Positions 27,651 through 54,021 of a stretch of 64,000 nt of DNA are shown piece by piece; the first letter of the stretch is position 1; every line of letters starts with the position of its first letter. The translations under genes were made by a program, and so were the position numbers. Source of the DNA: Methanomassiliicoccaceae archaeon (lineage in GTDB: Archaea > Thermoplasmatota > Thermoplasmata > Methanomassiliicoccales > Methanomethylophilaceae). The stretch spans positions 1-64,000 of the forward strand of contig JAEEOP010000040.1 in assembly GCA_016284295.1 (NCBI GenBank). The letters are read 5' to 3'. A model generated the notes under the pieces. That model saw only the letters and a list, made by a program, of their open reading frames with translations. It had not been told where the DNA came from and made no database searches.

Positions 27651-27670
27651 GTCGAACACCAGTGATGTAT

Positions 27671-29227: not shown

Positions 29228-30525
29228 CAGATCACCCTGTTGTCGATTACCCTCTTGGCCTTTCCTTCGAACCTGGGGAGTTCTCCGGGAGCCTTGAGTT
29301 CCACTTTGACCGCGATATTGAGGTATTTCTTTAAAGCGGATTCGATGTGCGCCCTCAGCTTCAACATGTCCTCCATGTTGTCGCTGAACGCCTCCGCCTT
29401 GATCTCGACCTGGATGACCATGTTGTCGAGGGCTCCGTCCCTTGTGACGTAGATCATGTACTGGTCCCCGACCTCCGGGATCTGCATGAGGGTGTACTCG
29501 ATCTGGCTGGGGAACACGTTGATTCCGCGGATGATGAGCATGTCATCGGACCTTCCGGTGATCCTGGCGATCCTGGGGGACGTCCTTCCGCACTCGCAGG
29601 GCTCGGTGATGATCTCGGTCATGTCCTTGATGCGGTACCTGACGAGGGGGAAGGCCTCCTTCTTGAGCATGGTGACGACGAGCTCACCCTTCTGTCCGGG
29701 CGGGAGGATCTCCTCCGTGTCGGGGTCGATGACCTCGATGTACATGATATCGGCGGAGATGTGAATACCCTTGTGGCAGGGGCAGTCGGTGAACATGGGT
29801 CCGCCCTGCTCGGAGGTACCGTAGATATCGAACGTCTCGATGCCGGTCTCGTCCTCGATCTTCTTCTTCATGGATTCGGACCAGGGCTCGGCCCCGAGGA
29901 ACGCGATCCTCAGCTTGGTGTCGTTCTTCAGGCTGACGCCCATCTTCTTGGCCACATCCATGAGGTGGATGAAATATGAGGGGGTGCAGGCGATGGCAGT
30001 CACACCCAGATCCATCATGAGCTCGATCTGCCTCTCGGAGTTGCCGGTGCTGGACGGGAGGACGGTGGCTCCGACCTTCTCTCCTCCGTAGTGGAGTCCG
30101 AGACCGCCGGTGAACAGGCCGTATCCGTAGCAGACCTGGAGGACGTCGTCGGTGCCGAGTCCCGCGGAGGTCAGCGACCTTGCCAAGGCCTCGGTCCAGT
30201 AGTCCAGGTCCCCCCTGGTGTATCCGACGAGGGTGGGCTTGCCGGTGGTACCGGAGGACACATGGTACCTCACGACCTGGTTGTTGGGCACGGTGAACAT
30301 CTTCGTGGGATAGTTGTCGCGGAGGTCCTGCTTGTACATGAAGGGCAGCTTGGAGATGTCCTCGATGCAGGTGATGTCTTTAGGCTTCACCCCGTGGGCC
30401 TCCATCCTGTCATGATAGAACTGATTGGACTCATAGAGCTTGGTCACGAGGGACTTTAATTCATCATACTGGAGCTTCTTCAAATCCTCCACAGGCATGC
30501 ATTCAATCTTCGGATTCCAGAACAT
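29227..30525 (-). CDS. paaK: Phenylacetate-CoA ligase-type enzyme 2
   Basis: 432 residues starting MFWNPKIECMPVEDLKKLQ. The P-loop SSGTTGKPT lies near residue 88, and YGTSEQGGP and RITGRSDDMLIIRGINVFPSQ follow, then the PaaK C-terminal domain. It activates aryl acids (phenylacetate, indoleacetate or similar) to CoA esters via an acyl-AMP. It heads an operon with the ACT and EF-like genes. The duplicate at 26349 in a separate transcript suggests different substrates. Confidence 0.9.
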   Translation of the reverse strand: MFWNPKIECMPVEDLKKLQYDELKSLVTKLYESNQFYHDRMEAHGVKPKDITCIEDISKLPFMYKQDLRDNYPTKMFTVPNNQVVRYHVSSGTTGKPTLVGYTRGDLDYWTEALARSLTSAGLGTDDVLQVCYGYGLFTGGLGLHYGGEKVGATVLPSSTGNSERQIELMMDLGVTAIACTPSYFIHLMDVAKKMGVSLKNDTKLRIAFLGAEPWSESMKKKIEDETGIETFDIYGTSEQGGPMFTDCPCHKGIHISADIMYIEVIDPDTEEILPPGQKGELVVTMLKKEAFPLVRYRIKDMTEIITEPCECGRTSPRIARITGRSDDMLIIRGINVFPSQIEYTLMQIPEVGDQYMIYVTRDGALDNMVIQVEIKAEAFSDNMEDMLKLRAHIESALKKYLNIAVKVELKAPGELPRFEGKAKRVIDNRVI

Positions 30526-39435: not shown

Positions 39436-39783
39436 ATGAAATGCTCGAAATGCGGTTTCGACAACCCGGAGAATGCGATATTCTGCGAGAAATGCGATTG
39501 GAAGCTCAGCGAGACGTATTTCCCTGAGATGAGGCTGAACCGCGGCATATTCTCCATAGCTGCTTTGGTCCTCGGGATCATATCGGTCTGCCTGGTGGTC
39601 TTCGACGTGTCATCCATCGCGGCCATCGTCCTTGGAGCGATCGGACTCATGCTGGGAGGATACTCGTTCAACTACAGCAGGCTAGCCAACATGCCGAACA
39701 AGAACGCCTATCTGGCCTGCAGTGCCATCGGACTCATCGCCAGCGTCGCAGGATTCATGTTCGGATTCGTAGATGTGATCTGA
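39436..39783 (+). CDS. Zinc-ribbon membrane protein (small, DUF4190-like)
   Basis: 115 residues. A zinc ribbon CSKCGF...CEKCDW lies at residues 3-20. A short link and three hydrophobic segments with a GAIGLMLGG turn follow. It resembles the two zinc-ribbon membrane proteins near 9 kb in plan but is shorter. Its stop overlaps the next ATG (TGATGG). Confidence 0.82.
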   Translation: MKCSKCGFDNPENAIFCEKCDWKLSETYFPEMRLNRGIFSIAALVLGIISVCLVVFDVSSIAAIVLGAIGLMLGGYSFNYSRLANMPNKNAYLACSAIGLIASVAGFMFGFVDVI

Positions 39784-40319
39784 TGGCGATATACCGCGGA
39801 AAGTACATCCTGGACGGTCTCGACGAAATAACTCCCGAGATGGAGCACAACCTCGACATCGCATACGAGATATGCATGTCGTACAGGGACAACTTTCCGT
39901 GCGAGATGTGCGGCAGATGCTGCCATCAGCCCAACATCATCGTCATGCCGGAGGAGATCGACCGTGTGGCCAACGCCGCCGGCATCCCTCCGTTCATGTT
40001 CCGCAGGAACTACATCGTCGAGATGCCCGACGGGAGGTTCCTGATAAACAAGCAGAACGACGGACCCTGCCCGTTCCTCGGCGAGGACAAGAGATGCACC
40101 GTGTGGAAGGACAGGCCCCAGATCTGCGACGATTTCCCTTATGCGGTCTCGATGTTCATGTCCAGGGTGTACCTGGCGCTGACCAATCCCGATGCGGATA
40201 TCATGAAACTAACTGCCTACATGGATATGAAATGGCCCTGCACGAAAGTAATCAGAAGGACCATAAAGAAGAAGATAGAGGAGCGCAGGGAGGATGTGAT
40301 CCTCCCCGGAGCTCACTGA
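39783..40319 (+). CDS. YkgJ-type Cys-cluster protein
   Basis: 178 residues. The Cys pattern is CEMCGRCC near residue 40, then GPCPFLGEDKRCTVWKDRP and ICDDFP. This is the UPF0153/YkgJ arrangement thought to bind Zn or an Fe-S cluster. A basic C-terminal helix follows. It is coupled to the preceding zinc-ribbon gene and overlaps the convergent acyl-CoA ligase by 7 nt at the 3' end. Function is unknown. Confidence 0.87.
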   Translation: MAIYRGKYILDGLDEITPEMEHNLDIAYEICMSYRDNFPCEMCGRCCHQPNIIVMPEEIDRVANAAGIPPFMFRRNYIVEMPDGRFLINKQNDGPCPFLGEDKRCTVWKDRPQICDDFPYAVSMFMSRVYLALTNPDADIMKLTAYMDMKWPCTKVIRRTIKKKIEERREDVILPGAH

Positions 40320-41998
40320 TTGTTCTGTTTTTTCTCGGCCTCTGCCTTGTCCTTGTTGCGGATGTCGACACGCTTGATCTTACCGCTGATGGACTTGGGC
40401 AGTTCGGTCACGAATTCAATCGCCCTGGGGTACTTGTAAGGGGCGGTCTCGTTCTTGACGTACGTCTGGAGCTCCTTTTTGAGCTCCTCGGTGCCCTCGT
40501 AACCGTCCCTGAGGACGATGGTGGCCTTGACTATCTGTCCCCTGACGGGGTCGGGAACGCCTGTGATCGCGCATTCGAGACAGCAGGGGTGCTTCAGGAG
40601 CACGGACTCGATCTCGAACGGGCTGATCCTGTATCCGGAGGACTTGATCACATCGTCGTTCCTTCCGACATACCAGAAGTAGCCGTCCTCGTCCTTCCAT
40701 GCGAGGTCCCCTGTGTGGTGGAAGCCTCCGAAGAGCGTGGCCCTGGTCTTCTGCCTATCGTGCAGGTATCCGACGAATATTCCGGCCGGGTGCGGGTCGA
40801 TGCCCACGACGATCTCGCCGACTACGCTGGGCGGGCATGATTTGCCGTCCTCGTCGACGATGTCGACATGGTACTGAGGCGACGGCTTTCCCATGGATCC
40901 AGGCTTGGGGGTCATCCCTTTCAGGTTCCCGACGAGCACGGTGGTCTCGGACTGTCCGAATCCCTCCATGAGCTTCAGGCCCGTGGCGGCGTACCACTTG
41001 TCGAATGTATCGGAGTTCAGCGCCTCTCCGGCGATGTTGGTGTTCGTCAGTGAGGAAAGGTCGTGTCCCTCGAGTCCGGCGTTGCAGTACATCCTGAACA
41101 TGGTCGGGGGGCAGCAGAACGTTGTGATCCTGTACTTCTCGATCAGGTTCAGCACGGCGACGGGGTCGAACTTGTTGTGCTCGTAGACGAACAGCCCAGC
41201 CTCCATGATCCACTGGCCGTACAGCTTCCCCCAGGCGTTCTTGGCCCATCCGGTCTCCGCGACGGTCCAATGCAGCCCGTCGGGCACGACGCAATGCCAA
41301 TGCTTCGCCGTCAGTATGTGGCCGATCGGGTAGGAATGGTCGTGGACGGCCATCTTGGGGTTGCCCGAGGTACCCGATGTGAAGTAGATCAGCATCATGT
41401 CCCTCACATGGGTGGGGACGCGCTTCCACTCCTCGGGGGCGGCCTCGACTCCCTCGTCGAAGTCCTCCCATCCGGGCGGACAGGGGCCGTTGTACTGGGA
41501 GTTGGTCATGCATTTGAACTTCAGGCTGGGGATGTCCTCCGCCTTGTCGAACTCCTGCCAGACAGGGGCGTCGGATGTCACGATTGCAGCCTTGATCGAC
41601 GCCGAGTTGATACGGTACTCGATGTCGTGCTTCTTCAGCATGAAGGTGGCCGGGATGAGGACGGCGCCCATCTTGTGCAATGCTATGGAAACATACCAGA
41701 ACTGGTAGTTGTGCTTCAGGACGACGAGGACCATGTCCCCCTTCCTGATGCCTTTGGACGTCAGGTAGTTGGCGGTCTTGTCGGACATGCGCTTGATGTC
41801 CGCGAAAGTGAACATCCTCTCGTGCCCCCTGTCGTCGCACCACATGAGGGCGCGCCTGTCGGGGTCGTTTATCGCTATGTCGTCCACGATATCGTATCCG
41901 AAGTTGAAGTTGTCCGGGTAATGGACCTTGTACGTCTTCAGGAGACCCTTCTCGTCGTACGTCTCGTCGACGTAGCGCAGGTTGATGTCCCTGGTCAT
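40313..41998 (-). CDS. AMP-forming acyl-CoA synthetase A
   Basis: 561 residues starting MTRDINLRYVDETYDEKG. The P-loop is YFTSGTSGNPKM near residue 205, A5 is EGFGQSETT, A7/A8 is YFWYVGRNDDVIKSSGYRISPFE, and the adenylation Lys motif is LPKSISGKIKRVDIR near the C terminus. It is closest in kind to medium/short-chain acyl-CoA synthetases (MACS/ACSM). It forms acyl-AMP, then acyl-CoA. It is very similar to synthetase B at 44005, which points to a duplication. It is the last gene of the seven-gene leftward cluster, overlapping cupin regulator A by 4 nt. Confidence 0.93.
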   Translation of the reverse strand: MTRDINLRYVDETYDEKGLLKTYKVHYPDNFNFGYDIVDDIAINDPDRRALMWCDDRGHERMFTFADIKRMSDKTANYLTSKGIRKGDMVLVVLKHNYQFWYVSIALHKMGAVLIPATFMLKKHDIEYRINSASIKAAIVTSDAPVWQEFDKAEDIPSLKFKCMTNSQYNGPCPPGWEDFDEGVEAAPEEWKRVPTHVRDMMLIYFTSGTSGNPKMAVHDHSYPIGHILTAKHWHCVVPDGLHWTVAETGWAKNAWGKLYGQWIMEAGLFVYEHNKFDPVAVLNLIEKYRITTFCCPPTMFRMYCNAGLEGHDLSSLTNTNIAGEALNSDTFDKWYAATGLKLMEGFGQSETTVLVGNLKGMTPKPGSMGKPSPQYHVDIVDEDGKSCPPSVVGEIVVGIDPHPAGIFVGYLHDRQKTRATLFGGFHHTGDLAWKDEDGYFWYVGRNDDVIKSSGYRISPFEIESVLLKHPCCLECAITGVPDPVRGQIVKATIVLRDGYEGTEELKKELQTYVKNETAPYKYPRAIEFVTELPKSISGKIKRVDIRNKDKAEAEKKQNNQ

Positions 41999-42570
41999 CT
42001 CTTGGCACCTCCCTTGATCACGACGGAGAGATACACGCATCCGTCCTTACTCGTGGCGGACACCCCGTGCATCTTGGACGAGTCGAAGTAGACGGAATCC
42101 CCTGCGATGAGGTTCTCCTCGTGCTCCTCGTAGACGAACCTGAGGCTTCCCGACACCACATAGATGAACTCCTGGCCCTCCTGCGAGGACATGGGGATGT
42201 CAGAATCCTGCTCGGCCTCCACATAAGGCGCGTTGACGAGGAACGGCTCCGCCATCTTGTTCTTGAAGTTGGAAGCCAGATGGTTGTACTCGAAGCCACC
42301 GCGCCTCCTGATGGGAAGGCCCATCCCGTCGTGGACGATGGAATAGTCCGAAAGACGGGGGTTCTCGCCCGTGATGAGCTCCACCATGTCCACTCCGAGC
42401 CTGTCGGCGCATTTGTAGAGGAAAGTGAAGGGTATGTCGAGCTGTCCCGTCTCGTATTTGATGTACTCCTCGACCGGCACCTCAGTGGCCTCGGACATGT
42501 CCTCGACCGAGAGCCCGCAAAGATCGCGCATCGAGCCTATGCGTGTGGAAATCTCTGTTGAATTGTACAT
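41995..42570 (-). CDS. HTH-cupin regulator A
   Basis: 191 residues. An XRE-type helix-turn-helix lies at about residues 8-62 (LCGLSVEDMSEATEVPVEEY). A C-terminal cupin barrel spans about 115-190. The cupin metal motif is altered: SSQEGQEF replaces the HxH/HEGxE element seen in the two paralogues, though MHG is kept. Such proteins regulate the neighbouring gene in response to a small acid or CoA ester; here it overlaps synthetase A by 4 nt. Start ATG at 42570. Confidence 0.92.
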   Translation of the reverse strand: MYNSTEISTRIGSMRDLCGLSVEDMSEATEVPVEEYIKYETGQLDIPFTFLYKCADRLGVDMVELITGENPRLSDYSIVHDGMGLPIRRRGGFEYNHLASNFKNKMAEPFLVNAPYVEAEQDSDIPMSSQEGQEFIYVVSGSLRFVYEEHEENLIAGDSVYFDSSKMHGVSATSKDGCVYLSVVIKGGAKR

Positions 42571-42574
42571 TTGA

Positions 42575-44008
42575 TCACAGCTCCTTGATGTTGCCGTGGC
42601 CGCCGCAGACGATCATTCCCTTCCTGCCTACGGAATCCATCAGCTTCCCGAGCTTGGAGCGGGTGTCGGTCAGGGCCTCGAGGTCGCCGTCCTTGGTGAC
42701 GTACGGTGCGATCTGGTTGAACTCCGCCCTCTCGGGGGTGAGGTCCTTGTTGTTGGAGTAGATGTCTCCGGTGAAGAGCAGCCTGGGCTCCCTGGAGATC
42801 ATGACGGTCTCGCCCTTGGATGTGACCCCGGGGCCCTCGTAGACCTCCAGCTCCACATCCCCGATCCTGACCTTGTCCAGGAGGACGAAGTCGTCATGGT
42901 CCTCGGGGACGTTCTCCCCGATGATGCGGATGCGGTCCTTCTCCGGCGGGACGTAGTCGGTGATGATCCTGCTCAGGCGACCGTAGGAGTAGTCGTACGC
43001 GTCGGAGTCGACGTTGGGCCTGGCCATGTTGAACAGCCCCTTCTCCGCCCTCCTGCTTACGATGATCTCCGCGTTCTCGATGACCGACAGCAGACCGCAG
43101 TGGTCCGATACCGCGTGGGTGACGAGCATCCTCTTGTTCATGCTGAAGAACGCAGGGAACATCTCCCTGAGCTCCGTGACCATCTCGTCCGAGAATATTC
43201 CCATTCCGGAGTCGATGAACAGCAGGTCGTCGCCGTTCCTGAGCACATAGGTGTTGCTGCCGCAGGGCGGCTCGATGACCACCAGGGTGGTCTCCTCGGT
43301 GATCTGGTGCTGCGTCATCCTCGGCTTGAAGTTGAGGTCCCTGTGGTAGGCGATGAAGTTGGCCAGCTCCAGGATCTTGTCGAACACGACCTTGGGGTCC
43401 TGGCCCCTCTCCATCAGGATGTCGGAGACCGACCTGCTCTCCGAGATGAACTCTATGACCTTCTCGTCGGGGAGGCTGAACAGCTTCTGGATTATGTTCG
43501 CCAGCCTGATGTACTCCACGGTGCAGTCCAGCAGGTCGTAGTTGCCGTTGTACTGGACGACGTTCAGGAGGTAGATCTCCGAGACCTCGTCCAGTATCTT
43601 CTTCGAGACCTGGGGGTCGCTAACCTCCATTCCGATCTTGAAGTACTGGTAGTTCCTGTTGTCCGCCCTGGAGTTCAGGTACGATATGTTGACGTCGTAC
43701 TTGTCGATGATGTTGAGCACCGGGTACAGAGAGCCGGGGGTGTCTGTTATCTTGACCTCCATGACCAGGATGGTCGGTTCCCTCGGAGTGTAGTCCACAT
43801 AGGAGATCTCGCTGAGACCCTTCTCTATGGCGTTCAGCTGGGCCTTGGTGGCCTGGACCTCGATGAAGAGGTTCAGACCGCCCCTCTTGTAACTGACACG
43901 GGTGATGTTGCCGCCCTGCTCCATGATCACCTTGCAGGCGAGCATGAACGCTCCGGGCTTATCGGGCGTCCTCGTGGTGAAAGTGCGCTTCATCGATGCA
44001 TCTGTCAT
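42575..44008 (-). CDS. ACT-domain / metallo-beta-lactamase-fold fusion protein
   Basis: 477 residues. Two ACT domains occupy about residues 8-160 (TPDKPGAFMLACKVI, TDTPGSLYPVLNIID). A helical linker leads to an MBL-fold domain from about 235. Its metal motif reads THAVSDHCG near residue 297, so the middle His of HxHxDH is Val; other ligands (FTGDIYSN, GGHGN) are present. This fusion suggests an allosterically controlled hydrolase, possibly a thioesterase, but the altered motif weakens that. It lies between synthetase B (4-nt overlap) and cupin A. Confidence 0.85.
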   Translation of the reverse strand: MTDASMKRTFTTRTPDKPGAFMLACKVIMEQGGNITRVSYKRGGLNLFIEVQATKAQLNAIEKGLSEISYVDYTPREPTILVMEVKITDTPGSLYPVLNIIDKYDVNISYLNSRADNRNYQYFKIGMEVSDPQVSKKILDEVSEIYLLNVVQYNGNYDLLDCTVEYIRLANIIQKLFSLPDEKVIEFISESRSVSDILMERGQDPKVVFDKILELANFIAYHRDLNFKPRMTQHQITEETTLVVIEPPCGSNTYVLRNGDDLLFIDSGMGIFSDEMVTELREMFPAFFSMNKRMLVTHAVSDHCGLLSVIENAEIIVSRRAEKGLFNMARPNVDSDAYDYSYGRLSRIITDYVPPEKDRIRIIGENVPEDHDDFVLLDKVRIGDVELEVYEGPGVTSKGETVMISREPRLLFTGDIYSNNKDLTPERAEFNQIAPYVTKDGDLEALTDTRSKLGKLMDSVGRKGMIVCGGHGNIKEL

Positions 44009-45645
44009 TGGCTATCCTTCTTCCTTATAGCCCCACGCTGTATTTTACCGTTAACGGTCTTGGGGAGCTCCTTGACGAAGTCTAGAGCCCTCGGATACTT
44101 GTACGGGGCCGTCTCGTGCTTGACGAAGTTCTGGAGCTCCTTCTTGAGCTCCTCGGTGCCCTCGTATCCTTCCCTGAGGACGACGGTGGCCTTGACCAGC
44201 TGTCCCCTGACGGGATCGGGTATCCCCGTGACGGCGCATTCCAGGACCGCGGGGTGGGTGACCAGCACGGATTCGATCTCGAAGGGGCTGATCTTGTAAC
44301 CGGAGGACTTGATGACGTCGTCGTTCCTTCCGACATACCAGTAGTATCCGTCCTCGTCCTTCCATGCGACATCCCCGGTGTGATACCATCCGTCGTGCAT
44401 GGCCTTCTTGGTCTTCTCCTCGTCGCGGTAGTAGCACATCATGAGTCCCGGAGGCTTCGGCTCGTATGAGATGACGATCTCACCTTCGGTACCCGCGGGG
44501 CACTCGTTGCCGTCCTCGTCAACGATCTTCACGTTATACTGAGGGGAAGGTTTACCCATGGAACTGGGCTTGGGCTCCATTCCCACGATGTTGCATACTG
44601 TACAGGTCGTCTCGGTCTGGCCGAATCCCTCCATCAGCTTGATGCCTGTGGCGGCGTACCAGCTGTTGAACACGTCGGGGTTGAGCGCCTCTCCCGCGAT
44701 ACAGCAGTACTTCAGGGACGAGAGGTCGTGCTGCTCCAGGCCGGCGTTGATGAACATCCTGAACATGGTCGGGGGGCAGCACAGGGATGTGATCCTGTAC
44801 TTCTCCACGATGTTGAGGATCTCGTGGGGCTCGAACTTGTCGTAGTCGTACACGAACACGGCGGCCTCCATATGCCACTGTCCGTACAGCTTTCCCCAGA
44901 CGGCCTTTCCCCATCCGGTGTCGGCGATCGTGAGGTGGATTCCTTCGGGATCCACGTTCTGCCAGTACTTTGCGGTGGACAGGTGTCCGAGGCTGTACAG
45001 GTGGTCGTGGAGGACCATCTTGGGGTATCCGGAGGTTCCCGACGAAAAGTACATCAGCATCGGCTCCTTGACATTGGTCTCGATCCTTTCCAGCTTGTCG
45101 GATGCCGCCTCGACGCCCTCGTCGAACTGCAGCCAGCTGTCCCTCTTTCCGTTGACGACCATCTTGATCCGCAGAGTGGGGATGTCCTCCGCAGAGTCCA
45201 CGGCGTCGCAGACACCGTTCATGTTCGTGCAGATCGCTGCCTTGATGGAGGCGGACCTGACCCTGTACTCCACATCGCCCTTGGTGAGCATGAACGTGGC
45301 CGGGACGATGACCGCTCCGATCTTGTGCAGGGCGACAATCGTGTACCAGAACTGGTAGTGGCGCTTCAGGATGACCATGACCATGTCGCCCCTGCCGATT
45401 CCCTGTGAGAGCAGGTAGTTGGCGGTCTTGTCAGACATCCTCTTGATGTCACCGAACGTGTACCTCCTCTCCTCCCCGGCGGGGTTGGTCCAGATCATGG
45501 CGAGACGGTCGGGCTCCTCCCGGGCGATCTCGTCCACGACATCATAGCCGAAGTTGTAGTCGTCGGGATAGTGGTACTCGACATGCTTGAGGATACCGTC
45601 CTCGCCGTACTGCTCGTCGACGTATCTTAGGTTGAGGTTCCTCAT
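44005..45645 (-). CDS. AMP-forming acyl-CoA synthetase B
   Basis: 546 residues starting MRNLNLRYVDEQYGEDG. The P-loop is YFSSGTSGYPKM near residue 196, then EGFGQTETT, YYWYVGRNDDVIKSSGYKISPFE and LPKTVNGKIQRGAIR. It is the close paralogue of synthetase A; substrate pockets cannot be compared without alignment. The start at 45645 overlaps the stop of cupin regulator B (ATGA). The longer open frame up to 46044 is rejected because it lies inside the regulator gene. Confidence 0.93.
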   Translation of the reverse strand: MRNLNLRYVDEQYGEDGILKHVEYHYPDDYNFGYDVVDEIAREEPDRLAMIWTNPAGEERRYTFGDIKRMSDKTANYLLSQGIGRGDMVMVILKRHYQFWYTIVALHKIGAVIVPATFMLTKGDVEYRVRSASIKAAICTNMNGVCDAVDSAEDIPTLRIKMVVNGKRDSWLQFDEGVEAASDKLERIETNVKEPMLMYFSSGTSGYPKMVLHDHLYSLGHLSTAKYWQNVDPEGIHLTIADTGWGKAVWGKLYGQWHMEAAVFVYDYDKFEPHEILNIVEKYRITSLCCPPTMFRMFINAGLEQHDLSSLKYCCIAGEALNPDVFNSWYAATGIKLMEGFGQTETTCTVCNIVGMEPKPSSMGKPSPQYNVKIVDEDGNECPAGTEGEIVISYEPKPPGLMMCYYRDEEKTKKAMHDGWYHTGDVAWKDEDGYYWYVGRNDDVIKSSGYKISPFEIESVLVTHPAVLECAVTGIPDPVRGQLVKATVVLREGYEGTEELKKELQNFVKHETAPYKYPRALDFVKELPKTVNGKIQRGAIRKKDSQ

Positions 45646-46217
45646 TGATCTCCCCTCTTCATGACGGAGGCTATGAACCTGCAGCCGTTCTTCGACGTCG
45701 CGTACATGCCATGGGGCATGCCGCTGTTGTAGTAGACGGAGTCCCCGGGCCCGAGGTCGTAGTAGTGTCCGGCGTGGACGAACCTCATGGTGCCCTCCAG
45801 CACGTAATCGAACTCGTTGCCCTCGTGCTGCGACAGGTGGACGTTCTCGTCGTTGTCCCCCTCTATGTACGGGGCTATTACGACGAACGTCTCGGACAGC
45901 CTGTCCTTCATGGTGTACCCCAGGTGCTGGTATTCGAATCCCAGGCGCCTCTTCATCGGGAGGCCCCTTCCGTTCTTCACGAAGGTGCACTCTCCCAGAT
46001 GGGGCTTTCCGCCGGTGAGGAGCTCGACCATGTCGACCCCGCACCTCTCAGCGATCTTGTAAAGGAATGTGAACGAGAAGTCCATCTCCCCGGTCTCGTA
46101 GACCTTGTATTCCTCGGGGGTCTTTCCGACCACCTCTGCCATCTCTTCGACTGATATGTCGCACATCTCGCGCAGAGCCTTTATACGCTCCGCTACCTCT
46201 GAAACTATTGGTTCCAT
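45642..46217 (-). CDS. HTH-cupin regulator B
   Basis: About 191 residues starting MEPIVSEVAERIKALR. An XRE-type HTH lies at about 8-60 and the cupin at about 110-185. The metal motif SQHEGNEFDYVLEG and the later MPHGM are intact. The ATG at 46217 follows GAGGTGTATGAA and is preferred to the ATG at 46235, which lies within the end of synthetase C. It shares the residue pattern KRRLGFEYQHL with regulator A (RRRGGFEYNHL), a likely ligand-pocket element. Confidence 0.92.
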   Translation of the reverse strand: MEPIVSEVAERIKALREMCDISVEEMAEVVGKTPEEYKVYETGEMDFSFTFLYKIAERCGVDMVELLTGGKPHLGECTFVKNGRGLPMKRRLGFEYQHLGYTMKDRLSETFVVIAPYIEGDNDENVHLSQHEGNEFDYVLEGTMRFVHAGHYYDLGPGDSVYYNSGMPHGMYATSKNGCRFIASVMKRGDQ

Positions 46218-46227
46218 TTCATACACC

Positions 46228-47892
46228 TCATGCATCGGGCCAGAGCTTATGGGCCATTTCCCTGAGTTCGTATTTTAAGATCTTTCCTGCGGCGTTCATC
46301 GGGAAGTCATCCACGAATGCCACGTATTTAGGGGTCTTGTACCACGCGATCTTACCGCGGCAGTAGTCCAGGACATCCTGCTCGGTCATATCGTCGTAAC
46401 CCGCATGTTTGATTATGAAAGCGCCGGGCTGCTCGCCGTACTTCTTGCTGGGGACACCGACCACCTGGACATCCTTGATCCCGGGACACTTGTAGAGGAA
46501 GTCCTCCACCTCCTTGGGGTAGATGTTCTCCCCTCCGCGGATGATCATGTCCTTGATCCTGCCGGTGACGTAGAAGTACCCGTCCGAATCCCTGTATCCA
46601 AGGTCCCCGGAGTGGAGATAGCCGTTCTTGTCGATGACCTTGGCCGTCTCCTCGGGCATCTTGTAGTACCCTTTCATGACGTTGTATCCCTTGCAGCAGA
46701 ACTCGCCGATGACACCGTCAGGGCAGGGCTCGTAGGTATCGGGGTCGAGGATGACCGTGTCGACACCCTGCAGCTTCTTTCCGACGGAGGAGCACTTCTT
46801 CTCGAGGGAAGGCTCGTCGTAGGTGGTCTGCGTCATGCCGGGCGACGCCTCGGTCAGGCCGTAGACGATGGTGATCTCCTTCATGTTCATCTTGTCCACG
46901 ACCTCCTGCATAGCGGAGATGGGACAGGGGGATCCGGCCATGATACCCGTCCTCAGGGACGAGAAATCGAACTTGTTGAACAGCTTGTGGTTCAGGATGT
47001 TGATGAACATCGTCGGCACACCGTACACGGACGTGCACTTCTCCTCCTCGATGGTCGTCATGACCTTGATCGGGTCGAAGACCTCGCAGAAGCACATGGT
47101 CACGCAGTGATTTATGCATGCCATGACACCTAGTACGCATCCGAAGCAGTGGAACAGGGGCACGTTGATGCACAGGCGGTCGGTGGGGCCGTAGTTCATG
47201 TTGGCTCCCAGCCAGTACCCGTCGTTGGCGATGTTGAAGTGCGTGAGCATGACACCCTTGGGGAAACCGGTGGTACCGGAGGTGTACTGCATCATGGTGA
47301 CGTCATGGACGTCGACAGAGTCCTTTCTCTTCTGATACTCGTCCTCGCTGACCGTGACCGCCAGGGACTTGACCTCGCTCATGGAGTACATTCCGCGGTG
47401 CTTGACCGGACCGAGGAAGACGACCTTCTTCAGGTACGGGTACGTCTCGCTGTGGAAGTTCTCCCTGGGCATGGTCTTGAGCTCGGGGACGAGGTCGTAG
47501 ACAGTCTGCACGTAATCGGTGTCCCTGACCCCGTCGATGAGGAACAGGACATCCATGTCGGACTGCTTCAGGACGTAGTCCAGCTCTGCCGCCTGGTAGT
47601 TCGTGTTGATCGTGAGCAGGATCGCGCCGATCTTCGCCGTGGCGAACATGAGTGTGATCCAATCGGGGACGTTCGTCGCCCAGACGGCGACCTTCATGCC
47701 CTTCTCGACGCCCATGGACATGAGGCCCTTGGCGACGCGGTCGACCTCCTGGCCCCACTGGGTCCATGAGAGGCGGAGCTCTCTGTCCACGTAGACGATG
47801 GCGTCGTTGTCGGGATGCTCCCTTATGCACTTGTCGAGCAGGTCACCTAACCTCTCGTCACTGGTGATGTTCTTTCTTGGAACGCAGACCAA
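46228..47892 (-). CDS. AMP-forming acyl-CoA synthetase C
   Basis: 554 residues with a TTG start preceded by GAGGTGAT. The P-loop is YTSGTTGFPKGV near residue 204, then VYGLTEASPGMTQ, LHSGDLGYRDSDGYFYVTGR, and the FPMNAAGKILKYELRE Lys motif. It is of the FadD/AcsF-type rather than the A/B type, so it probably takes a different acid (medium/short chain). It lies between HTH-cupin regulators C and B. Confidence 0.93.
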   Translation of the reverse strand: MVCVPRKNITSDERLGDLLDKCIREHPDNDAIVYVDRELRLSWTQWGQEVDRVAKGLMSMGVEKGMKVAVWATNVPDWITLMFATAKIGAILLTINTNYQAAELDYVLKQSDMDVLFLIDGVRDTDYVQTVYDLVPELKTMPRENFHSETYPYLKKVVFLGPVKHRGMYSMSEVKSLAVTVSEDEYQKRKDSVDVHDVTMMQYTSGTTGFPKGVMLTHFNIANDGYWLGANMNYGPTDRLCINVPLFHCFGCVLGVMACINHCVTMCFCEVFDPIKVMTTIEEEKCTSVYGVPTMFINILNHKLFNKFDFSSLRTGIMAGSPCPISAMQEVVDKMNMKEITIVYGLTEASPGMTQTTYDEPSLEKKCSSVGKKLQGVDTVILDPDTYEPCPDGVIGEFCCKGYNVMKGYYKMPEETAKVIDKNGYLHSGDLGYRDSDGYFYVTGRIKDMIIRGGENIYPKEVEDFLYKCPGIKDVQVVGVPSKKYGEQPGAFIIKHAGYDDMTEQDVLDYCRGKIAWYKTPKYVAFVDDFPMNAAGKILKYELREMAHKLWPDA

Positions 47893-47901
47893 GGTATCAC
47901 C

Positions 47902-48456
47902 TCAGAGGGGCGTGTACAGGACCGCGTATATCTCCGCGGGTCCGTCGATTGCTCCCACGTAGTGGGGGACGACTGAATTGTAATAGGCGCTGTCTCCGGG
48001 CTCGAGGATCTTCTTCTCCTTTCCGTAGATGAACAGGATCTTCCCTGTCACGACGACGATGAACTCCTCGCCCTCGTGGGTGCTGAGTTCGGGAGTGTCC
48101 TCCACACCGACGCGGATGAACATGGGCTCCATGTGCCTGTCGGTCTTTCCTTTTCCGAGGGGGAAGTACGTGTAGTCTCCCTTGTCCCCGTGGGATGATG
48201 CCTCGGGTTCCCTCTCGTTGAGCCTGACGACGATCGGATCGGGGTTGAACTGGTCGTCCGTGAATGTCCCGACCCTCTGACCGAGAGAACGGGAAAGCCT
48301 AATCAAAGAACCGATCGGAGGATATGCGATACCTTCTTCGTACTCTTTGATGGAATCCAAGCTAATGCCAGAGTTAATGGACAGCTGCTCTTGTGTGAGC
48401 TCCATTTGTTCCCTGTACTTGCGGATTCTCTTTCCTACTTTGTTCATGTCGGCCAT
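47902..48456 (-). CDS. HTH-cupin regulator C
   Basis: 184 residues. The XRE HTH is clear (VGKRIRKYREQMELTQEQL, SGISLDSIKEYEEG). The cupin at about 105-180 has STHEGEEFIVVVTG and a VPHYV His. It heads the leftward cluster and would be transcribed from the divergent promoter region at 48457-48546. It is a natural candidate for the pathway-level regulator of both divergent operons. Confidence 0.92.
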   Translation of the reverse strand: MADMNKVGKRIRKYREQMELTQEQLSINSGISLDSIKEYEEGIAYPPIGSLIRLSRSLGQRVGTFTDDQFNPDPIVVRLNEREPEASSHGDKGDYTYFPLGKGKTDRHMEPMFIRVGVEDTPELSTHEGEEFIVVVTGKILFIYGKEKKILEPGDSAYYNSVVPHYVGAIDGPAEIYAVLYTPL

Positions 48457-48546
48457 AATATTGCCTCGGAAATCCGTATTGAGCCCGTATAATAAACGTT
48501 TGCGTCCTACTATTTGTTAAAATAATGCTACGGATATTGCCAGCAT
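48457..48546. promoter_or_regulatory. Divergent promoter between the ligase/cupin cluster and the oxidoreductase operon
   Basis: Leftward TATA: minus strand CGTTTATTATACGG, box at 48489-48496, about 33-40 nt before regulator C. Rightward TATA: GTTAAAATAATG, box at 48517-48524, about 25 nt before the ATG at 48547, so that transcript is predicted leaderless. The whole 90-bp region is AT-rich. Confidence 0.5.
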
Positions 48547-49248
48547 ATGCGTTTCTTAGACAGGAGAGTGACCGTCATCTGTGGCCACTACGGCACCGGG
48601 AAGACGAATCTCTCCATCAATCTGGCGCTGGACTGTGCCAGGGAAGGGGACGAGGTCACCCTTATCGACATGGATGTGGTCAACCCCTACTTCAGGTCCT
48701 CCGACTACTCGGATGTACTGACCCGCGAGGGCGTCAGGGTGCTCGGACCCAATTTCGCCAACTCGAACCTGGACACGCCGTCGCTGCCCGCCGCTATCGG
48801 GGATACCATTTCGGACGGCCAGAAGGTCATAATCGATGTGGGCGGGGACGATGCCGGCGCCACTGCCCTGGGAGTGTACAGCAGGAAGCTGGCCGAGGCG
48901 GACCCCGATGTCCTGTATGTCATCAACAAATACAGGTCCCAGACCACTGCTGCGGACGAGGCCGCCGTAATACTGACGGAGATAGAGCGTGCGGCGAGGA
49001 TCAAGGCCACCGGGATCGTCAACAACTCCCATCTGAAGGACCTGACCGATGCGGACACCATCCTGGAGTCGGTGCCCTTCGCCGAGGAGGTGTCTAGGCT
49101 CACTGGACTCCCCGTAAGATTCACAACCGCCCCGGATTATGTTGACCTCTTAAATAAAATACCAATGATGTACCAAGTGCGTGTCTACGTGAAGGCACCT
49201 TGGGAAAAGGCAGGTAATCGAATTGCCAAAGATAATCGTCGACAATAA
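48547..49248 (+). CDS. P-loop ATPase associated with 2-oxoacid oxidoreductase
   Basis: 233 residues. Walker A is CGHYGTGKTN near residue 12, then TLIDMDVVNPYFRS (Walker A' / switch I region with Asp) and VIIDVGGDDAG (Walker B-like). This is the MinD/SIMIBI class. Similar ATPases precede KOR/VOR genes in other archaea and may help metal-cluster or cofactor insertion; that role is inferred. Its 3' end overlaps the TTG start of the ferredoxin gene by 26 nt. Confidence 0.85.
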   Translation: MRFLDRRVTVICGHYGTGKTNLSINLALDCAREGDEVTLIDMDVVNPYFRSSDYSDVLTREGVRVLGPNFANSNLDTPSLPAAIGDTISDGQKVIIDVGGDDAGATALGVYSRKLAEADPDVLYVINKYRSQTTAADEAAVILTEIERAARIKATGIVNNSHLKDLTDADTILESVPFAEEVSRLTGLPVRFTTAPDYVDLLNKIPMMYQVRVYVKAPWEKAGNRIAKDNRRQ

Positions 49249-49432
49249 CAGATGCAAGGGCTGTGAGATGTGCGTCATCGCATGCCCGAAGAAGATCCTG
49301 GAACTGGATCATTCAGTGACCAACAGCAAGGGATACCATCCCGCGCACGTGACCGACGCCGCCGCATGTATCGGATGCGGCTCGTGCACGATCATGTGCC
49401 CCGACTGCGCCATAAGGGTCGAGGTGGAGTGA
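49223..49432 (+). CDS. korD: 2-oxoacid:ferredoxin oxidoreductase, delta (ferredoxin) subunit
   Basis: 69 residues, TTG start with CAGGTAAT upstream. Two [4Fe-4S] motifs are present: CKGCEMCVIACP and CIGCGSCTIMCP. It carries electrons between the TPP site and soluble ferredoxin. It is followed directly by the alpha subunit (stop TGA, then ATG with no gap). Confidence 0.93.
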   Translation: MPKIIVDNNRCKGCEMCVIACPKKILELDHSVTNSKGYHPAHVTDAAACIGCGSCTIMCPDCAIRVEVE

Positions 49433-50494
49433 ATGTCAGACAAGGTATTGATGAAAGGCAACGAGGCCATCGCAGAGGCCGCCATCGCGGCCGGATGCAG
49501 GCACTTCTTCGGATACCCCATCACCCCCCAGACGGAGGTTGCGGCGTACATGTCGAAGAGGATGCCCAAGATCGGAGGAGTGTACCTCCAAGCGGAATCC
49601 GAGGTCGCATCGATCAACATGGTCCTCGGAGCGGGCGCCGCAGGCGTCAGGGTCATGACGTCCACATCGTCCCCCGGAATCAGCCTGATGTCCGAGGGGA
49701 TCTCATACATCGCAGGATCCGACGTGCCCTGCCTCATAGTCAACGTCGAGAGGGGAGGACCCGGACTCGGAGGAATCCAGCCCTCCCAGTCGGACTACTT
49801 CCAGGCGACAAAAGCCACCGGACATGGGGACTTCCACATGCTGGTCTTCGCACCTTCCACCGTCCAGGAGACTGTCGACCTCATCTCCGATGCGTTCGAC
49901 CTCGGTGACAAGTACAGGATGCCCACGATGATCCTGTCGGACGGTCTGCTCGGACAGATGATGGAGCCCGTGGTCCTCCCGGAGGCGAAGGACCCCACCG
50001 ACAACAAGGAATGGGCGGTCAAGGGCCACCAGGGCAAGAGGGCGCACAACGTAGTCAACTCCCTGTACATAGACCCCAAGGAGCTCGAGGACCTCAACAT
50101 CGCGAGGTTCGAGAAGTACAAGAAGATCATGGAGACGGAGCAGAGGGCCGAGGAGTACCTCGTCGACGATGCGGACATCGTCCTCGTCGCGTTCGGAGCA
50201 TCCTCCAGGATAGCCCACTCCGCAGTAGACATGGCGAGGAAGCAGGGCATCAAGGCCGGACTCATCAGGCCCATCACGCTCTGGCCGTTCCCCGAGAAGA
50301 CGATTAAGAAGCACATCGACCACGCAAAGGTGTTCCTGTCCGTCGAGATGAACATGGGACAGATGGTCGAGGATGTCAGGCTCACGGTCCAGGACAAGAA
50401 GCCGGTCCATTTCTTCGGACGCACCGGAGGAATGGTCCCCACACCCAAGGAGGTCCTGGAACAGATAGTCAAGCTCAACGGAGGCGAATGCTGA
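49433..50494 (+). CDS. korA: 2-oxoacid:ferredoxin oxidoreductase, alpha subunit
   Basis: 353 residues. It starts with VLMKGNEAIAEAAIAAGC, and the FFGYPITPQTE pyrimidine-domain motif is near residue 24. ERGGPGLGGIQPSQSDYFQ is the family region for the CoA/TPP interface. With the delta-alpha-beta-gamma order, this is of the KOR/VOR type rather than the PorABCD fusion type. Likely substrates are 2-oxoglutarate or branched-chain 2-oxo acids; the neighbouring acyl-CoA ligases favour the latter. Confidence 0.93.
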   Translation: MSDKVLMKGNEAIAEAAIAAGCRHFFGYPITPQTEVAAYMSKRMPKIGGVYLQAESEVASINMVLGAGAAGVRVMTSTSSPGISLMSEGISYIAGSDVPCLIVNVERGGPGLGGIQPSQSDYFQATKATGHGDFHMLVFAPSTVQETVDLISDAFDLGDKYRMPTMILSDGLLGQMMEPVVLPEAKDPTDNKEWAVKGHQGKRAHNVVNSLYIDPKELEDLNIARFEKYKKIMETEQRAEEYLVDDADIVLVAFGASSRIAHSAVDMARKQGIKAGLIRPITLWPFPEKTIKKHIDHAKVFLSVEMNMGQMVEDVRLTVQDKKPVHFFGRTGGMVPTPKEVLEQIVKLNGGEC

Positions 50495-51249
50495 TGTCCA
50501 AGGTAATGGGAGAGAGGCCCAAGGCGCTGCTCGATGTACCGCTCCACTACTGCCCCGGATGCACGCACGGTATCGTGCACAGGCTGGTCGCGGAGGTCAT
50601 CGACGAGCTCGGCATCGAGGGCAAGACCGTAGGAGTAGCCTCGGTCGGCTGCTCGGTGTTCACATACAACTACTTCGGCTGCGACATGGTGCAGGCGCCG
50701 CACGGACGTGCCCCTGCAGTCGCCACTGGTGTCAAGAGGGCGAGGCCCGACAACGTGGTCTTCACCTACCAGGGGGACGGCGACCTCGCCGCCATCGGAA
50801 TGGGCGAGACCGTCCATGCCGCGGCAAGGGGAGAGAACATCGTCGCCATCTTCATCAACAACGCCATCTACGGAATGACCGGAGGCCAGATGGCACCCAC
50901 CACCCTTCCCGGACAGGTCACACAGACCACCCCCTACGGAAGGGACACGTCCGTCGCAGGGAACCCCATCAGGGTCTGCGAGCTGCTCTCGTCCGTCAAG
51001 GGCGTGGCGCTGGCGGAGCGCGTGACCGTCGACTGCGTGAAGAACGTCAAGGCGGCCAAGAAGGCGATCAAGAAGGCCTTCGAATACCAGATGGCCGGAA
51101 AGGGATACTGCATCGTCGAGGTCGTTTCCACCTGCCCCACCAACTGGGGTATGGCTCCCGGAGAGGCCCTCCAGTGGCTCAGGGACAACATGCTTCCCTA
51201 CTATCCGCTCGGAGTCTACAAGGACGTCGGAGAGGAGGGAGAGCAATGA
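50494..51249 (+). CDS. korB: 2-oxoacid:ferredoxin oxidoreductase, beta subunit
   Basis: 251 residues from the ATG at 50494, which overlaps the korA stop by one base (TGATG). YCPGCTHGIVHRL near residue 20 and the TPP motif YQGDGDLAAIGMGETVHAA are diagnostic, as is NNAIYGMTGGQMAPT. This subunit binds thiamine diphosphate. The gene overlaps korC by 4 nt. Confidence 0.94.
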   Translation: MSKVMGERPKALLDVPLHYCPGCTHGIVHRLVAEVIDELGIEGKTVGVASVGCSVFTYNYFGCDMVQAPHGRAPAVATGVKRARPDNVVFTYQGDGDLAAIGMGETVHAAARGENIVAIFINNAIYGMTGGQMAPTTLPGQVTQTTPYGRDTSVAGNPIRVCELLSSVKGVALAERVTVDCVKNVKAAKKAIKKAFEYQMAGKGYCIVEVVSTCPTNWGMAPGEALQWLRDNMLPYYPLGVYKDVGEEGEQ

Positions 51250-51779
51250 ACGACCTGAACATCCTCCTGGCCGGATTCGGGGGACAGGGCATCCTGTTCA
51301 CCGGAAAGGTCATCGCCTATGCAGGGCTGATGGAGGGCAAGGAGGTCTCATGGCTTCCGTCCTACGGCCCCGAGATGCGCGGAGGAACCGCGAACTGCAG
51401 CGTCTGCCTGTCCGAGAACAAGATCGGATCGCCCCTGGTCACCAACCCCGATGTCCTCGTGGCGATGAACCTCCCCTCGCTGGAGAAGTTCGAGAATGAC
51501 GTCGTCCCTGGAGGGATCATCATCGTCGACTCCTCGATCATCGCTAAGAAGGTCCAGCGCACGGATGTCAAGACCATCTACATCCCCGCATCGGAGATCG
51601 CAGAGGAGAACGGCATCAAGGGAGCCGCCAACATGGTCATCCTGGGCAAGCTGTTCAAGGAGACCTGCTTCTGCTCCGAGGAGAACCTGGACAAGGGGCT
51701 CCAGAAGACCATCCCTCCGAAGAAGATGGACCTGCTCGACAAGAACAGGCTCTGCATCAAACTCGGAAGGGAGAACTGA
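51246..51779 (+). CDS. korC: 2-oxoacid:ferredoxin oxidoreductase, gamma subunit
   Basis: 177 residues starting [20 protein letters not shown], with [19 protein letters not shown], the gamma-domain signature. It completes the four-subunit enzyme. The ATG overlaps the korB stop (ATGA). It is the last gene of the rightward operon. Confidence 0.94.
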
Positions 51780-52125: not shown

Positions 52126-54021
52126 TTACTCTGTGTCAGACGATTTGCTGACCGTGATTTTCTTGGAGGTGACTCCAATGGCCTGCATCGCGAGGAGGAC
52201 GGCCGAGAGCACCAGTCCGCACACCGCGATGAAGAACGATCCGTCGAGTCCGGGGGCCCATGCAGCGAATACGACTGCGAGGACGAGACCGACGACCGTG
52301 ATGATCATGGATGCGAACGAGATCGCCTTGGAGGTCCTTCCGGGTATGAAGAAGTTGACCGACTGCAGGACGGCGACGAGGACTCCGATTGCGCAGATGA
52401 TCACGGGGATCATGGCCTCAAACGCGGTGCTGGTGCTCATGAGGTCGAGTCCGGTGACTCCCATGGACCAGTCTCCCATGACGGCCAGGAAGGTAATGCA
52501 GGCTCCAACGATTGCCAGGACTCCGTACAGCTTGGGCTTGGGGTTGGCATCCTTAGAGAACACCATACCGGCGACCATCTCGGGGTGGACCTGGGTGTTC
52601 CACCACTGCAGGACCATCCAGCAGGGGATGTACAGCAGGCTGGCCGCGATACCGATGAACACGTATGCGACTCCCATGAGGTCGTTGACGTAATAGAGCA
52701 GACCGGGGATCATGAAGAAGAACTCGAAGATCGCCATGAAGATGGCTCCGGGATATGCCCAGCGGGGCGCCTTGTAGACCCTCTCCACATCCTTGAAGCG
52801 GGAGTCGTGCCTGGACTTGACGAAGGCGAGCATGCACATTCCGATTGCGATGGAGAATCCGAGAGCGGATACCGCCAGGATCTGGGAGGCTGTGATGCCG
52901 GTCAGGATGATGACGAATCCGATGAAGACCTCGAAGTACATGGCGACCATGGGGACACCGTACGAGTTGGTCTTCGCGAACATCATGGGCAGGTTTCCAT
53001 CCTTCGCCATGATCTGGATGGTCCTCGCGGATCCCAGGAAGGCGGTCTGGATGATCATGACCATTCCTGCGATGAGCAGGATGACCGCGACTGCTCCTCC
53101 GATCTCTCCGAAATCGCTCTTGGCGATGGGGATGAGGGTGGCGGCTCCGGCCTCCTCGATGCCTGCGATACCGAGGGTCCCGTACATGAAGAACGAAATC
53201 ACGAAGTACATGAACAGACAGAGGAGTCCGCATGCGATGAGTGCCTTGGGGACGTCCTTTCCGGGGTTCTTGTACTCTGCTCCGTAAGTGGCGGCCGTCT
53301 CCCATCCGACTGCGCTCCACTGTGCGACAGTGAAGCATCCGAGGATCATCAGGATGGCGTTGGCATCCCACTGCCAGCCGGCCGGGACCATCTCGGATGT
53401 GATGGTCTCCATGTGGAACTGGCCGTTGAGGAGCGGCACGAACACGATGATGAGGATGGGGATGATCGTGATTATGGCGAGGATGAGCTGCGCCTTCGCG
53501 CCTCCCTCCAGACCCTTCCTTCCTGTCAGGATGATGAATCCGTAGATGAGTGCTCCGAGGAGGAGATAGAACAGGGTCTTGGTGAAGCCTTCGATGCCTG
53601 CGAAGGCCTGGAAATAACCGAACAGATAATCGCCGGTCATGATGGTGAAAATCGGGATGACGGGGACCCATGTGGCGAAATACGCCCAGGCTCCGAACGA
53701 ACCTATGAGACGGCCGGTGTTGATCTTCTTCCCTTTATACTTCTCATCGTCCCTGAAGACGTGCTGGATCGAACCTCCGATACCGGCGACTCCGAACGTG
53801 GCACAGAGCTCTCCGAGGGGAATGTTGATCAGGAAGCCCGAGAGGACCGAGAACGTCCATATGAGGATGGACATGGCCCAGAGGCTGACGGAAAGGTCGC
53901 AGAGGGAGGGCACGATGAGGATCGGTATCCCCATGGCGATGATGAGCCCCTGCTTCCAATCGATGTTACGAACCAGCTCATTCCCCGAGTTGGGTGTGCC
54001 GGTCTGAGATTCGCTTGTCAT
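52126..54021 (-). CDS. APC-superfamily amino acid/amine permease
   Basis: 631 residues with about 14 hydrophobic helices. The N-terminal GLIIAMGIPILIVPSLCDL is an APC-like opening helix. A helix-8 stretch (GSARTIQIMAKDGNLP) and a KAPRWAYPGAIFM loop are typical of APC (AAT/YfnA-like) permeases. The protein is long, with an extra helix pair at the C terminus. In methylotrophic methanogens related permeases are encoded with methylamine methyltransferases; none of those genes are here, so the substrate is open. Stop TAA. An unusually AT-rich region lies upstream. Confidence 0.9.
   Translation of the reverse strand: MTSESQTGTPNSGNELVRNIDWKQGLIIAMGIPILIVPSLCDLSVSLWAMSILIWTFSVLSGFLINIPLGELCATFGVAGIGGSIQHVFRDDEKYKGKKINTGRLIGSFGAWAYFATWVPVIPIFTIMTGDYLFGYFQAFAGIEGFTKTLFYLLLGALIYGFIILTGRKGLEGGAKAQLILAIITIIPILIIVFVPLLNGQFHMETITSEMVPAGWQWDANAILMILGCFTVAQWSAVGWETAATYGAEYKNPGKDVPKALIACGLLCLFMYFVISFFMYGTLGIAGIEEAGAATLIPIAKSDFGEIGGAVAVILLIAGMVMIIQTAFLGSARTIQIMAKDGNLPMMFAKTNSYGVPMVAMYFEVFIGFVIILTGITASQILAVSALGFSIAIGMCMLAFVKSRHDSRFKDVERVYKAPRWAYPGAIFMAIFEFFFMIPGLLYYVNDLMGVAYVFIGIAASLLYIPCWMVLQWWNTQVHPEMVAGMVFSKDANPKPKLYGVLAIVGACITFLAVMGDWSMGVTGLDLMSTSTAFEAMIPVIICAIGVLVAVLQSVNFFIPGRTSKAISFASMIITVVGLVLAVVFAAWAPGLDGSFFIAVCGLVLSAVLLAMQAIGVTSKKITVSKSSDTE

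Follow-up and report, generated by a model that had tools for sequence, protein, structure and literature searches.

A conserved cluster of HTH-cupin and acyl-CoA ligase genes that probably supplies branched-chain amino acids from external acids in Methanomassiliicoccales

The locus described here lies in a 64,000-nucleotide stretch of contig JAEEOP010000040.1 (hereafter the window, meaning the whole stretch analysed) from the assembly GCA_016284295.1 of a Methanomassiliicoccaceae archaeon. The genome measures 1.86 Mb, and the window belongs to its contig 44. The open reading frame (ORF) list of the window places real genes in a leftward run of seven, encoding three proteins that join a helix-turn-helix (HTH) domain to a cupin domain, three AMP-forming acyl-CoA ligases and a fusion of an ACT domain to a metallo-beta-lactamase (MBL) domain, and in a rightward ATPase-korDABC operon with a 2-oxoisovalerate ferredoxin oxidoreductase (VOR) assignment (Table 1). 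A Pfam scan of ten proteins of the locus confirmed their domains; korB and korC are named by NCBIfam matches only. All junctions of the leftward run measure nine bases or fewer. CupA and ligA are separated by 9 nt, ligA and cupB overlap by 8 nt (or leave a short gap if an inner ATG is the cupB start), 4-nt overlaps link cupB to ligB, ligB to the ACT-MBL gene and cupC to ligC, and 4 nt lie between the ACT-MBL gene and cupC. An initial annotation, made from the sequence alone, had described seven packed leftward genes facing the ATPase-korDABC operon across 90 bp, with ligases linked to cupins mostly by 4-nt overlaps. ORFs, Pfam and NCBIfam matches and junctions bear out this layout, and such overlaps occur at two of the three cupin-ligase junctions.

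Table 1. Genes and features of the locus, with positions in the window.
Feature	Position	Strand	Evidence and remarks
HTH-cupin A (cupA), 184 aa	47902-48456	-	Pfam HTH_3 and Cupin_2; metal triad H-E-H intact; HTH net charge +2
Ligase A (ligA), FadD-like AMP-forming acyl-CoA ligase, 554 aa	46228-47892	-	Pfam AMP-binding; NF009233 681 bits, cut-off 832
HTH-cupin B (cupB), 197 aa	45642-46235	-	Pfam; metal triad intact; acidic HTH; HppE and 1y9q matched across both domains by the family profile
Ligase B (ligB), MacsMa/MbcS-like AMP-forming acyl-CoA ligase	44005-45645	-	3etc 660 bits; MbcS model 486 bits, cut-off 850
ACT-MBL fusion, degenerate MBL metal motif	42575-44008	-	Pfam ACT_4 and Lactamase_B; alignment; structure model
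HTH-cupin C (cupC), 191 aa	41995-42570	-	Pfam; first metal His replaced by Gln; acidic HTH
Ligase C (ligC), MbcS-like AMP-forming acyl-CoA ligase	40313-41998	-	MbcS model 493 bits, cut-off 850; 65 percent identity to ligase B
Divergent space, 90 bp	48457-48546	.	Conserved TTTATT(A/T) TATA-like element towards cupA; partly conserved block beside ATPase start
CbiA/ParA-type P-loop ATPase, first gene of kor operon	48547-49248	+	Pfam CbiA; synteny
korD, ferredoxin-like subunit, two 4Fe-4S motifs	49223-49432	+	Pfam Fer4 families
korA, VorB-type alpha subunit (2-oxoisovalerate ferredoxin oxidoreductase)	49433-50494	+	NF005507 562 bits, cut-off 399
korB, beta subunit	50488-51249	+	TIGR02177 117.6 bits, below cut-off 261.9
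korC, gamma subunit	51246-51779	+	NF006323 116 bits, below cut-off 235

The same gene order recurs in seven related loci (L034, L035, L037, L038, L040, L041 and L090), and an eighth (L036) shares it to the limit of its contig; a chance arrangement is excluded by this conservation. In the syntenic loci, as in the window, the ATPase gene opens the kor operon. ACT-MBL relatives are encoded in the metagenome-assembled genomes Thermoplasmata archaeon SIG3, SIG4, SIG8 and SIG9 and Candidatus Methanomethylophilaceae archaeon RGIG4496 (five loci), the last of which was recovered from roe deer omasum and carries a family name that points to the order Methanomassiliicoccales.

Pairing of cupin and ligase genes extends well beyond these loci, yet it is not one to one. 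Across Methanomassiliicoccales, an A-, B- or C-type acyl-CoA ligase lies directly downstream, on the same strand, of 69 of the 70 HTH-cupin genes that score above 150 bits and have downstream sequence (types are best-hit labels). Part of the loci in this set was chosen through ligase matches; a cupin-driven set free of that choice shows a ligase directly after 48 of 49 cupins (rows matched by hand). When 292 genomes drawn evenly across the phylum were searched with a cupin profile, 49 genes in 26 genomes were found at E 1e-25, all of them in the window's own order. Counted from the ligases, 67/78 of those above 600 bits have a cupin directly upstream, and the remaining 11, in 11 loci, are all the second ligase of a cupB-ligB-ligC run that shares one cupin. 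The pairing seen in the window is thus conserved in neighbouring genomes, whereas the earlier proposal of one sensor per ligase is not general, and a strict one-cupin-one-ligase rule is ruled out by these second ligases. The sole orphan HTH-cupin that we met is a cupC-like gene with no adjoining ligase (L152:8756-9316, contig 38 of G019).

The modules are arranged differently among relatives. In the window's clade, which comprises the seven related loci listed above, the full set of seven faces the VOR operon. In the other group of the same genus (e.g., L042, L043, L046 and L049), the VOR operon is faced by a single cupB-ligB-ligC run, with cupA-ligA as a separate convergent unit. An intermediate form, cupA-ligA-cupB-ligB, occurs in G185, a genome of the same family but of a different genus than the window. 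Ten loci, from families f2 and f6 and from G104 (another genus within the window's family), place cupA-ligA 158-276 bp downstream of, and co-directional with, a different kor operon, whose subunits are 39-54 percent identical, with one short piece at 59. Of the 70 cupins altogether, 22 face the ATPase-kor operon directly and 10 come after the different one. Both cupin kinds are thus repeatedly linked to a kor operon, but not in every genome: several have cupA-ligA at a separate place, and three genomes of the same genus (G020, G008 and G021; loci L048, L051 and L052) carry a cupin-ligC pair with no kor gene in the stretch examined.

The enzymes of the locus point to branched short acids. KorA scores above the VorB cut-off, and all four VOR subunit types are present (ferredoxin-like, alpha, beta and gamma), the beta and gamma subunits falling below the cut-offs of the models they match. 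The closest solved relative of ligase B is 3etc, aligned over 23-545 with the next solved protein at 377 bits; we take 3etc to be MacsMa of Methanosarcina acetivorans. Ligases B and C both keep the Trp of an AKYW/AKHW motif, presumably Trp259 of the MacsMa paper, and the Gly of an FGQ(T/S)ET motif. The locus differs from MacsMa in having two such ligases in one operon, each with an upstream cupin in the window. The preferred acid of MacsMa is 2-methylbutyrate, according to the available part of its description (PMC10455477). Among NCBIfam equivalogs, the nearest model for ligases B and C is MbcS (NF047394); both score under its cut-off, and we therefore speak of likeness rather than membership. 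Archaeal lipids are not known to need acyl-CoA or fatty acid synthesis, and in this the archaeal setting departs from that of Staphylococcus aureus MbcS. The S. aureus enzyme activates 2-methylbutyrate and isobutyrate, performs poorly with isovalerate, and delivers its product to fatty acid synthesis (PMC10026030). For ligase A, we propose isovalerate by exclusion. Aryl acids were rejected as the main substrate of the locus: the alpha subunit, of VorB type, falls far short of the IOR cut-off, and two PaaK-like ligases encoded separately in the window would serve such acids.

Genomes carrying the full locus also differ in what they lack. We searched 31 genomes of the genus and defined the expanded locus by an ACT-MBL protein of at least 68 percent identity, which marks nine of them; ACT-MBL paralogues of 31-33 percent identity in eight other genomes were not counted. 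IlvB is absent from 8/9 expanded-locus genomes and from none of the 22 others (Fisher p 1.1e-6), and IlvD from the same eight and from 3/22 others (Fisher p 1.7e-4), both p values ignoring shared ancestry. The three IlvD-less genomes without the expanded locus are only 76-85 percent complete. Among the 17 genomes that are at least 90 percent complete, IlvB is absent in 6/7 with the expanded locus and 0/10 without it; two of the genomes lacking IlvB and IlvD (G007 and G042) are single contigs of 98 percent completeness. A LeuA-type synthase (464 bits or more to LEU1_arch, identity tested on the G013 copy alone) is found in 0/9 expanded-locus genomes and 11/22 others, and in five de novo genomes (G013, G014, G015, G019 and G041) this gene lies 3.6-4.7 kb from the VOR operon. 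Outside the genus, 27 of 29 genomes have an IlvB match, 25 of them above cut-off. Class IV aminotransferases, a family wider than branched-chain aminotransferase, occur in G000 and in 38/41 genomes. Judging from these genomes, key genes of valine, leucine and isoleucine synthesis have been lost in most species that carry the full cluster.

We consider it likely that the locus is a branched-chain-acid route to valine, leucine and isoleucine that takes the place of de novo synthesis in most genomes with the expanded form, most likely by acid activation, reductive carboxylation and transamination. Assimilation is well supported by gene content and gene loss, because the locus combines a VorB-type oxidoreductase with MacsMa/MbcS-like ligases and because IlvB, IlvD and the LeuA-type gene are absent from most or all expanded-locus genomes; the same evidence upholds the initial annotation, which had read the locus as acid-assimilating. 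In the matching of ligases to acids and the reaction direction that we infer, the three AMP-forming ligases would convert external isobutyrate, 2-methylbutyrate and isovalerate to CoA esters, and the VorB-type ferredoxin oxidoreductase would reductively carboxylate these to the 2-oxo acids of valine, isoleucine and leucine. The final step would fall to a branched-chain aminotransferase encoded elsewhere in the genome. As to ligands and mode of regulation, we infer that every ligase is produced alongside a metal-binding HTH-cupin that would sense the acid or its CoA ester. DNA binding is the most likely mode of action for cupin A, and action on the ligase is a likely one for cupins B and C; the ACT-MBL protein would probably monitor the amino-acid product.

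In the cupin phylogeny, cupB from the window's clade falls together with the other group's single cupin (support 100/99), and cupC does not. Among the ligases, a supported group (100/99) unites ligase B of the window's clade with both sets of C and leaves ligase B of the other group outside; this tree is rooted on very long outgroups and does not fix the order of duplications. In a tree of joined locus genes, from which G011 was dropped since its contig holds only part of the locus, G024 is unresolved within the clade and G185 lies near the clade base. Loss of IlvB and IlvD takes at least three changes, and a single losing clade without G024 is not rejected (approximately unbiased test, p-AU 0.061). 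The placement of these two genomes therefore fits more than one count of losses and makes transfer between genera possible. At the G185 locus (L134), identities to the window are 91 percent for ligA, 83 for cupA and 76 for ligB, against 85-87, 65-68 and 65-68 percent in the second group of the window's own genus, and the locus may have moved between genera by horizontal transfer.

Several observations weigh against the assimilation route as proposed. Ligase A has no close solved relative, the best being 8weu at 266 bits. The LeuA-type gene is also missing from 11/22 genomes without the expanded locus, so its absence is not special to that form. One genome, G024, has the expanded locus together with IlvB and IlvD; the neighbours of its IlvB gene (GAPDH-like, NTPase-like, Bud32-like and RadB-like, named by sight) are those found in G013 and G041, and IlvB therefore looks retained rather than regained. 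G167 and G312, of the window's family, have no cupin match and also lack IlvB, so that this loss can go with something else, such as amino-acid uptake. G011, which carries the expanded locus, showed no class IV aminotransferase. Finally, the window's genome keeps IlvC (L079:10874-11860) and CimA (L096:1625-3196), which the scheme does not need. IlvC is present in 38/41 genomes, including all seven of that set with the expanded locus (G000, G003, G007, G011, G012, G018 and G024). Compared with the G024 copy, IlvC is 67-78 percent identical in five genomes lacking IlvB and IlvD and 82 percent identical in G013 from the other group, while two IlvC-neighbour genes are 79-90 percent identical between G024 and those five. 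This divergence beyond that of the neighbours fits relaxed or changed work for IlvC. A role as ketopantoate reductase is a guess that the absence of PanE would fit: PF08546 was absent from 31/31 genomes of the genus, in a search that also missed it in M. jannaschii and M. acetivorans.

Two other accounts of the locus have to be weighed against assimilation. The hosts might import branched-chain amino acids, the loss of IlvB and IlvD being unrelated to a locus that activates acids for some other use. The cupin-less genomes G167 and G312 speak for this, as does the close relationship of the nine expanded-locus genomes, whose losses may represent one or few events given the reconstructions above. 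We nevertheless judge it improbable, since IlvB is kept in all 22 other genomes of the genus, the VorB assignment and the likeness to MacsMa point to branched acids, and archaeal lipids are not known to create a need for acyl-CoA. Alternatively, the genes could run in the catabolic direction, with imported amino acids oxidized to CoA esters and from these to free acids, in the manner of peptide-fermenting archaea. VOR enzymes can operate both ways, the oxidative one being used in Pyrococcus, and an APC-type transporter gene adjoins the operon (52126-54021). The ligases, however, are AMP-forming and spend ATP, and are not of the NDP-forming type of peptide fermenters, which is the subject of PMC3942289 as far as its available part goes. 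In the sections available of PMC10658910, moreover, the isolates of this lineage live by methyl-reducing methanogenesis. Catabolism also gives no reason for the link to IlvB and IlvD absence, and we regard it as very unlikely.

The HTH-cupins themselves can be read in more than one way. Pfam HTH_3 scores above cut-off in all three cupins of the window, and a family profile spanning both domains matches two solved proteins equally well. One is the hydroxypropylphosphonic acid epoxidase HppE (1zz6; E 1.2e-13), in which the H-x3-E...H residues are aligned; the other is 1y9q (E 2.2e-13), an HTH_3-cupin transcriptional regulator of Vibrio cholerae, whose alignment has a gap where the first His of the triad lies. 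A fold search with a cupB structure model (predicted local distance difference test, pLDDT, 73.4; predicted TM-score, pTM, 0.56) placed HppE first by E-value and 1y9q third, whereas the TM-score was higher for 1y9q (0.58) than for HppE (0.47, with a large root-mean-square deviation). HppE is an oxidizing iron enzyme, and its aligned H-E-H residues presumably bind the iron. Because the host methanogens are strict anaerobes, an HppE-type reaction, and with it epoxidase activity, is unlikely in the cupins of the locus. In an alignment typed by best hits, from which three cupins of G042 were left out, the H-E-H triad is intact in 31/31 cupA, 24/24 cupB and 5/12 cupC proteins. The seven cupC proteins without the first His all come from expanded loci, and G043 alone keeps it among the eight expanded-locus cupC in the set. 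Mean net charge of the HTH domain is +2.4 in cupA (31 proteins), -7.0 in cupB (24) and -5.8 in cupC (12); the only three reference proteins give +1 (SinR), +3 (1y9q) and -4 (HppE). DNA binding is therefore plausible for cupin A and doubtful for cupins B and C.

These results divide the earlier reading of the cupins as acid-specific DNA-binding sensors: the HTH domain is there in all three, but it is strongly acidic in B and C, and the family stands as near to a metalloenzyme as to a regulator. Classical repressors or activators that bind promoters of nearby genes are possible, though we stop short of calling them probable. The HTH_3 matches agree with such a role, as do the cupA charge, akin to those of SinR and 1y9q, the TM-score advantage of 1y9q and the 22/70 cupins that directly face the ATPase-kor operon. 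It sits poorly with the HppE-like charges of cupB and cupC, with 11 ligases that have no cupin of their own, and with three regulators in a single operon, which would be odd. Nor was a shared operator found in the 90-bp divergent space, where the palindrome CGGATTTCCG of the window is absent from the other five alignment rows. More speculatively, and in our estimate doubtfully, the HTH-cupins could be metal-binding partners of the ligases instead of promoter-binding regulators, proteins of HppE make in which the HTH domain of B and C has turned to protein contact. If so, archaeal acid activation would be gated in a new manner, by metallo-cupin partners specific to each kind of ligase.

In the ACT-MBL fusion, alignment shows a strongly conserved ACT part and an MBL metal motif that is not conserved. 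The HxHxDH motif reads HAVSDH in the window, HADADH in L034 and L041, HADVDH in L050 and HADADR in L037, and the last MBL motif is GQG in L034 and GHG in the other four. Since the metal motif is not conserved, we rejected an ordinary active MBL enzyme, and because conservation lies in the ACT part, the protein is probably a sensor of the amino-acid product rather than an enzyme. A structure model of medium quality (pLDDT 74.8) returned only general MBL-fold matches in a fold search, and a sequence search among solved proteins gave no relative at E 0.01.

The pathway as such follows known chemistry. Rumen methanogens of other orders need, or are stimulated by, such acids (available parts of PMC10658910 and PMC2812497), and formation of isoleucine from 2-methylbutyrate by reductive carboxylation is cited for Methanobrevibacter ruminantium in the latter. 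The proposed steps are the same, from external acid through CoA ester and reductive carboxylation to transamination; within its available part, PMC2812497 names the route without a ligase or oxidoreductase gene. What sets the present locus apart is a dedicated cluster with three ligases, paired HTH-cupins, a VOR operon and, along with these, a lack of IlvB, IlvD and the LeuA-type gene. In the open-licence PubMed Central (PMC) literature, inspected in small part, we did not meet this cluster, the cupin-ligase rule or the linked absence of IlvB and IlvD. No paper there combines Methanomassiliicoccales, auxotroph and branched-chain amino acid, or cupin, helix-turn-helix, acyl-CoA synthetase, regulator and methanogen, and the main text of the ISO4-H5 genome paper has no word beginning leucine, branched or acyl-CoA.

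This cluster of a rumen-type methanogen thus probably turns the branched short acids of its neighbours into valine, leucine and isoleucine. For the little-cultured Methanomassiliicoccales, it would put genes to the old rumen observation that methanogens use such acids. It also predicts the species for which acids from other microbes are a necessity, a dependence relevant to rumen methane. Defined media with isobutyrate, 2-methylbutyrate and isovalerate suggest themselves for enriching carriers, and the large set of HTH-cupin and ligase pairs offers ground for asking whether these cupins are regulators or partner proteins.

Other genes of the window deserve mention. The two PaaK-like phenylacetate-CoA ligases (26349-27659 and 29227-30525, minus strand) score 472 and 489 bits against a TIGR02155 cut-off of 646, and are likely to form an aryl-acid arm in the same window; between them lie an unnamed 140-aa ORF and an EF-Tu/SelB-like ORF. 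The APC-type transporter beside the operon, on the minus strand, bears a weak likeness to a trimethylamine N-oxide (TMAO) permease model (159 bits, cut-off 690) and could possibly import acids or amino acids. A polyphosphate kinase with four PP_kinase domain matches is encoded at 32167-34224 on the minus strand. Convergent with ligase C, a CxxCxxCC (PF03692) protein is encoded at 39783-40319 on the plus strand; a gene of this kind likewise sits beside the locus in several clade relatives, and in two other genera it lies within about 1 kb of cupA-ligA (L131, L133 and L138).

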